A stretch of DNA of 45,103 nt. Origin: Betaproteobacteria bacterium. Lineage in GTDB: Bacteria; Pseudomonadota; Gammaproteobacteria; Burkholderiales; SG8-39. Where the stretch lies: assembly GCA_004298325.1 (NCBI GenBank), contig SCUF01000017.1, positions 1-45,103 on the forward strand. Direction: 5' to 3'. Position numbers and translations under genes: made by a program. The stretch's first letter is position 1. The number at the start of each line of letters is the position of its first letter. This document shows, piece after piece, positions 10,068 through 34,862 of this stretch. Under the pieces are notes generated by a model. The model was not told the DNA's origin and made no database searches. It saw only the letters and a list, made by a program, of their open reading frames with translations.

Positions 10068-12278
10068 TCACTCTCGACCGTGTGCAAGTAGAGGTCCCGT
10101 TTCCAGATACTCACTCGGACTCCCAGAGCAAGAAAGAAACAGGCGCTTTACGGCACGAGTCGCAGCAACATGGAGGAGCGAACGTTCGTTGGCTACTCGA
10201 AGCTCCGATTCCACGGGATCTTGCGATTGGAGCGCCCTCTCCAGGGGCACCACGCCTCGATTGAGGCCAGCCACGAACACCACCTTGAATTCCAGGCCCT
10301 TTACCCGGTGCATTGTTGCCAGTCGAACGCCAGGCACGCTTCTATGGTCTGGTTGCCGGCGAGAAACAATCTTCACGCCAACGCCCAGGCGCTTCAGGCC
10401 GCTCGCGTAGCCTTCTACCAGTGAGGTGGTTCGTGCCACGATACACATGTCTTGAGTCTGAAGTCCTTCGACCTGAAGGGCCTCGATAGACTCGCGGAGC
10501 CATGCGATCTCCTCGTCGATCGTGGAGAACTGCCGCCGCTCGGGCGGCTCCCCATGCATTAACGATACGTAACCGTCGATTGGGTCGGTGCCGCCATCCA
10601 GATCGTCGACCTTCAAACCTGTAAGCACACCAACCGCGAAGCGCCGGGTCTCCTCGGTAGTCCGGTAGTTGATCCGTAGCTTCTTTCCGCGCCCGCGGAT
10701 GTCGATGCCGCAGCGTCCGAGCACTGCCTTGCGCTGATATATGCGCTGATAGCCGTCCCCAACGATGAACAAATCATCCGACTGCACGGTCACGAGCCGT
10801 CTTAGCAGTGTCAACATCTCGGCGCCAAAGTCCTGTCCCTCATCAATCACGATGCAGCGATAAGCGGCGTTGCCGACGCCATCGCGTTGCAGCATGGCGA
10901 GAATCTCGTGGATCGCGTCTTCCAATGTCATCAGTTTGCGAAGGGCCAGCTGGATGCGCATCTCCTCGAACACCGGCCAAATCTTCGTGCGCTGACTGCG
11001 TGTCAGCGCTACCCCGCGCCCAACTCGGCTCGCCACGAAATAGCCCTCCGCAGTTTTCAAACCTTGCGGCAGCACCACACGTTCCCACTCTTCGTCGTAG
11101 AAACTGCCCGGCAGCCCTAGCTCCGCCGGGATTAGAGCCTGCGCGCGTTGCCAGCAACGTTCGTAGTCGCCTCCGGTCTCACCCGGATAGACGATGCGGA
11201 GCTTGTAATCTTGCTTGCGAAGATAGGCGTGCACCCAGGCATCGATGTGCTGGACCTCGATGCGTTGCAACAGATCTGCGCTGCAGATCTTGCGCAGATT
11301 CTCACCGATGTCGGTAGCCAGGTTTGCCGTGAAAGTCGTAAACAGCAGCCGCTCGCCAGCGGCAAGCACATTCTGCGCGAGCCACTCGGCTCGATGCATC
11401 GCTACTACCGTCTTGCCTGTACCCGCACCGCCCAACACTCGAACCGGACCGCCCCAATGGCGCTCCACTAACCTGCGCTGAGAGGGGTGCAGGAAAACGC
11501 GCCACCTTTCCAGCGGCGCTTCCAGCATTTCGATCAGTTCAAGCTCATTTTCGACCACATGGAAGCGCTGGCGCGACGCGTCCTTGCCCAGTGCCGTCGC
11601 AAAATCCGCCGTGTCCACCGGTTCGGTCGGTGCAGGCGAGGCGAAGTCCGCAATCAGCTCCGCTAATGGTGTCCCGGCTGCGTAGAGGTAAAGTGCCTCG
11701 AAGGCCTCGCGCGGCAACCAGCTCTCTGCGGCTTCCAACTGCTCAGCGGTACACAACAAACGCACGCGTCCGAAGTCGTCTGGCGGCACACCTAAGCGCA
11801 GTAGCGTCGACTCATTCAGCGAGTCCAAAACGAGGCGTATTGGATGGTGCTCAGGTGCAGGGGCTTGATGGGTGCTGGCGGGTGCGGGCGCGACCACCGG
11901 CTGAAACCCGCCTGGAGCCTCCGACAGCGCCGTCGCGGATTGAACCGCGAGCAATTGCAAGACTCCTGTCGTCGGGTGAATACCGCAGCGATGACGTCGA
12001 GCCCAGTCATAGGCGGCGTCGTGCTTGTCCACCCACAGAAGCACATACACGTTCCCGCTTTCGGGGCTGAGCACGATGCCCCGATATTCCTGATCCACCC
12101 GGACGGAGCGGAAGTTGGGATCTCGAGTGTCGTTGATCTTTTCGTAGTTGATGCCGCCGGATCTTGGGTTGTGGCGGAACTTGGCCACGAACTCCATCAC
12201 TTTTTTCTGCTTGCTTCTGGGAATCATGGCAAACGACTCCAGAAAGCCGTCACCGATCGCCACTTTGATCTCACTCAT
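10068..12278 (-). CDS. UvrD-family helicase with N-terminal RelE/ParE-like domain
   Basis: 736 aa from MSEIKVAIGDGFLESF; N-terminal ~100 aa RelE-like (NDTRDPNFRSVRVDQEYRGIVL...YVLLWVDKHDAAYDWARRH), then GAGTGKTVVAMHRAEWL, VIDEGQDFGAEML, VGDGYQRIYQ, VKGLEFKVVFVAGLN, VAATRAVKRLFL. Confidence 0.85.
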   Translation of the reverse strand: MSEIKVAIGDGFLESFAMIPRSKQKKVMEFVAKFRHNPRSGGINYEKINDTRDPNFRSVRVDQEYRGIVLSPESGNVYVLLWVDKHDAAYDWARRHRCGIHPTTGVLQLLAVQSATALSEAPGGFQPVVAPAPASTHQAPAPEHHPIRLVLDSLNESTLLRLGVPPDDFGRVRLLCTAEQLEAAESWLPREAFEALYLYAAGTPLAELIADFASPAPTEPVDTADFATALGKDASRQRFHVVENELELIEMLEAPLERWRVFLHPSQRRLVERHWGGPVRVLGGAGTGKTVVAMHRAEWLAQNVLAAGERLLFTTFTANLATDIGENLRKICSADLLQRIEVQHIDAWVHAYLRKQDYKLRIVYPGETGGDYERCWQRAQALIPAELGLPGSFYDEEWERVVLPQGLKTAEGYFVASRVGRGVALTRSQRTKIWPVFEEMRIQLALRKLMTLEDAIHEILAMLQRDGVGNAAYRCIVIDEGQDFGAEMLTLLRRLVTVQSDDLFIVGDGYQRIYQRKAVLGRCGIDIRGRGKKLRINYRTTEETRRFAVGVLTGLKVDDLDGGTDPIDGYVSLMHGEPPERRQFSTIDEEIAWLRESIEALQVEGLQTQDMCIVARTTSLVEGYASGLKRLGVGVKIVSRRQPDHRSVPGVRLATMHRVKGLEFKVVFVAGLNRGVVPLERALQSQDPVESELRVANERSLLHVAATRAVKRLFLSCSGSPSEYLETGPLLAHGRE

Positions 12279-34700: not shown

Positions 34701-34862
34701 TTGCTCGTCGCCATCGAGAAAATTCACCAATACGCGTTTGCGTGAAATGGGCCCATCTGTCTCGCTGCCCAGGATTCCAATCCGACCCGGATTGGCTCTC
34801 AGTCTGACTTTGTCACCGGGCCGCATCCTTGCGTCGTCTTCGCCACCAAGAGTATCCGGCAT
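31707..34862 (-). CDS. SNF2/RapA-like helicase
   Basis: 1051 aa from [31 protein letters not shown] upstream; [77 protein letters not shown]. Confidence 0.9.
   Translation of the reverse strand: [1051 protein letters not shown]

Follow-up and report, generated by a model that had tools for sequence, protein, structure and literature searches.

The locus examined here is a run of eight minus-strand genes which combines helicase and methylase families of DISARM with a giant helicase of the kind found in Druantia, and raises the question of which antiviral system, if any single one, it encodes. The window, meaning the whole 45,103-nucleotide stretch of DNA that was analysed, is an entire contig of a 4.0-Mb metagenome-assembled genome of 492 contigs, and because the assembly is this fragmented the binning and completeness of the host genome are uncertain. 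An earlier note had proposed a single eight-gene system, of ARMADA type or undescribed. The locus probably encodes an anti-phage system of ARMADA type II (ArmA-ArmB-ArmC-ArmD) to which accessory defence genes have been added, a reading given a probability of roughly 0.7 from sequence comparison. The best reading of the surroundings is that this ARMADA II variant, together with Gabija, forms part of a layered, WYL-associated defence island carried by a conjugative element. The identity of the core, its retained catalytic motifs, the co-directional and overlapping genes and the recurrence of inserts between armB and armC in other ARMADA II loci were all observed directly.

Gene order and carrier of the locus

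The ORF check confirmed eight real and tightly packed minus-strand ORFs within 10068-34862 (Table 1), bearing out the earlier description of co-directional genes with short gaps or overlaps. Using starts supported by homology (ATG 26877 and not GTG 27000 for ArmB, ATG 12278 for ArmD), the spacings were 22 nt for g1-g2, 87 nt for g2-g3, 22 nt for g3-g4, -4 nt for g4-g5 (overlapping at GTGA), 8 nt for g5-g6, 41 nt for g6-g7 and -8 nt for g7-g8. Pfam and PADLOC profiles agreed with the domain labels that had been assigned to two SNF2 proteins, a PglX/Eco57I-type methylase, the N- and C-terminal parts of GmrSD, a YprA/MZB helicase and a UvrD helicase.

The co-directional block is wider than eight genes, extending from an SbcD/SbcC-like pair (43765-39975) through the WYL gene, REase-ARP, ARPP-1 and the eight genes to GajA-GajB (9931-6030). 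The Gabija system is complete at 6030-9931 (-), with adjacent genes for an OLD-TOPRIM GajA and a UvrD GajB, and follows armD directly, with the same orientation. At the left end of the window traF, traH and traG are found on the opposite strand, and the island is therefore placed on a conjugative element. The WYL-domain protein encoded upstream is a likely regulator; WYL genes are likewise found immediately before armA in Martelella and beside g1-g2 in loci G564 and L019. A promoter and terminator scan of the locus gave no signal above chance that separated or joined its modules.

Other genes were seen upstream of the eight. The SbcC/SbcD-like AAA and metallophosphatase pair precedes a 133-aa protein and the WYL regulator, the interval between WYL and REase-ARP holds a gene for a Cas4/PDDEXK_1-like nuclease in the opposite orientation, and REase-ARP adjoins ARPP-1, with which it may form another small conflict module.

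Table 1. Features of the window, with the profile, motif or homology evidence for each.
Feature	Position	Strand	Evidence
TraF-TraH-TraG conjugation genes	115-5418	+	PF13728, PF06122, PF07916
GajB (UvrD), neighbouring Gabija	6030-8018	-	PADLOC GajB, 422 bits, full length
GajA (OLD-ABC and TOPRIM), neighbouring Gabija	8018-9931	-	PADLOC GajA, 600 bits, full length; OLD TOPRIM
g8, armD, RelE-like N-terminus and UvrD/GajB-like helicase, 736 aa from ATG 12278	10068-12278	-	52% identity to E. coli ArmD
g7, armC, YprA-family helicase with MZB/DUF1998, 2125 aa	12271-18648	-	tree; 39% identity to E. coli ArmC
g6, GmrSD/DUF262-DUF1524 type IV restriction endonuclease, accessory gene in slot	18690-20555	-	GmrSD_N E=2e-22, GmrSD_C E=3e-9
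g5, 452 aa, accessory gene in armB/armC slot	20564-21922	-	homologues in ARMADA II locus G747 and other defence loci
g4, armB, PglX/YeeA-like N6-adenine methylase, 1652 aa from ATG 26877	21919-26877	-	55% identity to E. coli ArmB; Eco57I
g3, armA, BrxHII/RapA-like SNF2 helicase, 959 aa	26900-29779	-	54% identity to E. coli ArmA over 961 aa
g2, actin/Hsp70-superfamily (ASKHA) type ATPase by motif, second of pair	29867-31684	-	LDFGTS..K, DVGAGTVD, GGG
g1, DrmD-related SNF2 helicase, first of pair	31707-34862	-	PADLOC DrmD model PDLC02623, 908 bits, full length
ARPP-1 protein	36367-35405	-	
REase-ARP (restriction endonuclease associating with ARP)	37511-36432	-	
Cas4/PDDEXK_1-like nuclease	37909-38565	+	
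WYL-domain regulator	38562-39545	-	PADLOC WYL E=4e-42
SbcC/SbcD-like AAA and metallophosphatase pair	39975-43765	-	

The armA, armB, armC and armD genes

ARMADA type II comprises ArmA (BrxHII-like), ArmB (PglX-like), ArmC (YprA) and ArmD (RelE-UvrD), encoded in strict order, and the described example used for comparison is armABCD of E. coli NCTC 12900 / ATCC 8739 (Bell et al. 2025, PMC12458937). A further feature of ARMADA type II is phage protection that does not involve abortive infection. The order of g3, g4, g7 and g8 is that of ARMADA II, with two genes inserted between g4 and g7. Alignment with the E. coli proteins matched Walker A K135 and Walker B D235 of ArmA to the published K136/D236 and the Walker A and B residues of ArmD to the published K266/D454; ArmB keeps the NPPW motif and the glycine of the SAM site, and the Walker residues K108/D228 of ArmC are conserved. 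The E. coli plasmid locus L007 carries the mutated residues of the publication at exactly the published positions (ArmA K136 and D236, ArmB G605 and N971, ArmC K110 and D234, ArmD K266 and D454), and the window retains each of these eight residues, which are essential or important in the E. coli system. A C-terminal PD-(D/E)xK (Vsr-like) motif region of ArmC, E..PDF..LDG at approximately 1690-1777, aligned across ARMADA II, and through this aligned motif region ArmC has the predicted Vsr-type nuclease feature of ARMADA II.

The tree of 19 YprA proteins calculated with IQ-TREE placed ArmC of the window inside the ARMADA II clade (100/100) as sister to the E. coli protein (100/99), with the lake-metagenome locus G747 next to these two (93/96). 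Outside the ARMADA II clade stood two rows resembling ARMADA I (Thermus, Nostoc) and three of DruE, and long-branch warnings were given for the outgroups and the Streptomyces row. Judged at the level of sequence and gene order, g3, g4, g7 and g8 have the tested defining features of ARMADA type II, and together with the tree they vindicate the earlier guess of ARMADA.

Pfam recognised the UvrD part of ArmD. The RelE-like N-terminus ascribed to this protein by the earlier note gave no match in Pfam, but it aligned with the N-terminus of the E. coli protein whose residue numbers agree with those published for ArmD, as well as with those of Pseudanabaena, Aulosira and Martelella ArmD. ArmD-like RelE-UvrD proteins of 30-35% identity were also seen in L042-L058, approximately 17 genomes of the phylum sample, mostly beside genes for proteins of approximately 1000 and 950 aa and without ArmA/ArmB; because it recurs in this other context, the RelE-UvrD fusion is not unique to ARMADA II. 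Scanning IMG/VR with g5, ArmD, ArmC and g2 returned no useful relative.

Genes at the armB/armC junction and upstream of armA

The junction was compared in 15 ARMADA II loci in which it was complete and in A-B-C order. Inserts were present in five, all co-directional and differing in content, and the other ten junctions were empty (E. coli, Pseudanabaena, Microvirga, Martelella, Streptomyces, Aulosira, G373, G432, G564 and G060). Among the E. coli rows listed from 518 matching genomes, armB and armC were contiguous in 20 of 20. The insert of the window consists of g5 and the GmrSD gene g6, while that of G747 contains a g5 homologue (64%), NOV_C, two sacsin-like proteins and a DrmD-like SNF2 protein split over two ORFs. 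The G247 insert encodes a 137-aa protein and an 892-aa P-loop protein which match the PADLOC candidate set PDC-M28 (PDC-M28A/B/C), the G370 insert a DUF3368/PIN-like protein (PDC-S70) and the G145 insert a lipoprotein-like gene that is not obviously defensive. A sixth, truncated locus outside the 15 (G102) has an FRG-domain gene right after armB. The split SNF2 gene, lying between g5 and armC in L030 (G747:C12), consists of overlapping ORFs of 418 and 494 aa and reflects a frameshift or an assembly error.

The main text of the ARMADA paper mentions neither inserts between armB and armC nor Hsp70-like, DUF262 or GmrSD proteins (PMC12458937). In BREX, approximately 9000 genomes carry pglX and pglZ together, and in approximately 7000 of these the two are separated by other genes, with the GmrSD enzyme BrxU as one of the most frequent known ones (PMC11341690; the theme is also treated in PMC12839542). 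The armB/armC junction appears to be a recurrent accessory slot in ARMADA II, as judged from 15 loci in which some inserts, such as that of G145, are not obviously defensive. Through this slot, it is proposed, ARMADA II would act as a carrier of back-up effectors that are exchangeable and co-expressed with it. ARMADA II has been reported as a strict four-gene order, and a cargo slot between armB and armC parallels the pglX/pglZ slot of BREX, suggesting as a general rule that defence operons built around a methylase have interchangeable back-up effectors encoded immediately after the methylase gene. Such a slot is a place to look for new effectors; the g5 family and the g1-g2 pair are concrete candidates.

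The product of g6 retains intact GmrSD motifs (DGQQR, FEVINDRG and HIEHI), so that the DUF262 motif DGQQR and a DUF1524 HNH motif are present in one protein. Its composition departs from that of the core (GC 0.52, GC3 0.68), and a homologue of 56% identity is encoded without ARMADA on a Mucilaginibacter plasmid.

No match to g5 was obtained in Pfam, NCBIfam or PADLOC, and the AlphaFold model calculated from three sequences was poor (pLDDT 46). The gene is rare: of the 397 other genomes in the phylum sample 3 have it, one of them as the C-terminal part only. Its GC3 of 0.76 is core-like, the values for ArmA, ArmB, g5 and ArmC together spanning 0.74-0.76. In the window and in G747 it is the first gene of the insert, right after armB. 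Other homologues are located between pglX and pglZ in the BREX-1 operon of Acinetobacter towneri (L004, 28%), immediately behind hsdR in a type I operon of the order hsdM-hsdM-hsdS-hsdR (L125, 31%), adjoining a type IIG-like methylase and an AriA-like AAA protein (L005, 73%), together with a helicase-nuclease and g1-g2 in L018, and next to a McrC fragment in L003. These neighbourhoods suggest that several kinds of methylase-based defence system have g5 as a companion protein. Because of its position it may act on or sense the modification enzyme, and its likeliest role, suggested with low confidence, would be as a regulator or sensor of the modification machinery. An impression of a degenerate PLD protein, gained from the N-terminal alpha/beta pattern, was dropped when hhalign against one PLD restriction protein was negative, and in Nostoc HK-01, where the locus is apparently ARMADA I, the 414-aa protein encoded between methylase and YprA helicase was found not to be g5.

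Upstream of armA, g1 scored below the NCBIfam DrmD (NF038317) cut-off with 420 of 610 bits, and g3 scored 347 bits. The ASKHA motifs of g2 are common to seven g2 homologues, and its 19 weak matches in the PDB were to sugar kinases, BiP/Hsp70 and ParM only, with a best E=0.02. Neither a Pfam match nor a chaperone substrate-binding domain was found, and the single-sequence AlphaFold model was poor (pLDDT 35). The label Hsp70-like given earlier to g2 is based on these motifs and weak profile matches. The homologues of g2 in L018 and L019 have C-terminal CxxC pairs resembling a DnaJ zinc finger, which the copy in the window does not have.

In every one of the ten loci opened (window, Aminobacter, Leptolyngbya, Cyanobacterium HL-69, Sphingobium, Shinella, L018, L019, L020 and G564) g1 was beside g2, mostly without ARMADA; a weak g2 match in G734 (E=7e-4, internal stop) lies outside the ten. 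In the reverse check, g2 adjoined g1 in 6 of 6 plasmid records that matched g1 strongly. Over nine loci the pairwise identities of g1 were correlated with those of g2 (Mantel r=0.93, p ~1e-4), and GC3 was 0.62 for g1 and 0.57 for g2 compared to 0.74-0.76 for ArmA, ArmB, g5 and ArmC. The pair has no obvious defence partner alongside in Leptolyngbya and Cyanobacterium. Aminobacter, L019 and G564 combine it with genes for a WYL regulator, a nuclease-helicase of TM0106 type and McrB/McrC-like proteins, and in G564 it is divergent from the ARMADA II operon. Most loci of the pair lack ARMADA, which marks g1-g2 as a two-gene unit in its own right. In L011, L019 and G564 (L021 with L066) a candidate six-gene set was seen, consisting of WYL, a TM0106-type RecB-like nuclease-helicase, McrB-like AAA_5, McrC-like, g1 and g2.

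Interpretation and comparison with known systems

The mechanism proposed for the locus is drawn from its protein families. ArmB would modify host DNA and, like PglX in BREX, provide specificity and mark self, leaving ArmA and ArmC to move on and open unmodified invading DNA. ArmC may then cut with its C-terminal Vsr-like nuclease, and ArmD would help with its helicase and RelE-like domain. Encoded within the operon, GmrSD could cut modified-base phage DNA that escapes the methylation-based system, as BrxU does in BREX, and the upstream SNF2 and ASKHA-ATPase genes would be a separate module adding a layer of its own. The ARMADA II core is known, and no description appears to exist of the armB/armC slot, the g1-g2 pair or the g5 family. 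A tentative joint proposal, held at slightly less than even odds, is that g1-g2 is an undescribed two-component defence system, in which a DrmD-related SNF2 translocase would be controlled by an actin/Hsp70-fold ATPase, used alone or plugged into ARMADA II or McrBC-like loci, and that g5 is a new accessory family shuffled among N6-methylase systems (ARMADA, BREX, type I RM) and placed beside the modification enzyme or its partners.

The inserted genes could instead be passengers, with a junction that tolerates insertion and with GmrSD, g5 and g1-g2 as ordinary island neighbours with no functional link to ARMADA. The deviating composition of g6 and g1-g2 and their relatives elsewhere without ARMADA would agree with this, as would the non-defensive appearance of the G145 insert and the absence of inserts from most ARMADA II loci. 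It is nevertheless thought unlikely: the inserts are co-directional and tightly spaced, g5 leads the insert in two loci and is core-like in composition, and both g5 and GmrSD-type genes are found beside methylase genes in other defence systems too. The short gaps between eight co-directional genes had led the earlier note to one undescribed system whose components all act together. No second locus with all eight was found, and homologous loci retained only subsets, which are structured into the core, the slot contents and the pair; these parts are separable, as g1-g2 occurs mostly without ARMADA, g6 on the Mucilaginibacter plasmid and g5 in several other defence systems. The pair moreover has partners of its own (WYL, TM0106 nuclease and McrB/McrC-like in L011, L019 and G564) and is divergent from ARMADA in G564, and the single eight-gene system is regarded as highly improbable.

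Hardly any credence is given to a variant of DISARM or Druantia, despite matches to DrmD-type, DrmMI-type and DruE models, as the helicase and MZB domain are in one protein with no drmA/drmB split, the NCBIfam DrmD cut-off was missed, ArmC is outside the DruE rows and inside ARMADA II, and no DruH-like gene is among the listed ORFs. The appearance of a DISARM/Druantia hybrid arises because ARMADA itself shares its methylase and SNF2 helicase with DISARM and has a YprA helicase closest to DruE.

When the locus, read as ARMADA II with accessory genes, is compared with Druantia type III (DruH-DruE), the giant YprA helicase with its MZB domain is shared, while the clade and the partners differ and no DruH was recognised among the listed ORFs. 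DISARM class 1 (DrmD, DrmMI, DrmA, DrmB, DrmC) has the same SNF2 helicase and PglX-like methylase families; the window differs in having no split DrmA/DrmB and no DrmC, in the single 2125-aa protein for helicase and MZB, and in a SNF2 score under the DrmD equivalog cut-off. With BREX carrying embedded genes (BrxU, PARIS; PMC11341690, PMC12839542) it has in common a defence operon in which a gene for GmrSD and one of the g5 family lie next to the gene of a PglX-type methylase. The core is however that of ARMADA, with no BrxC, PglZ, BrxA, BrxB or BrxL among the genes identified, and neither BrxC nor PglZ among the Pfam and PADLOC matches of the eight operon genes or the other window genes scanned. 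The closest agreement is with ARMADA type II of E. coli, which has the four orthologues in the same order at 39-55% identity, the eight residues, the RelE-UvrD fusion and the same ArmC clade, and from which the window differs by two extra genes between armB and armC and by the SNF2-ASKHA pair directly upstream.
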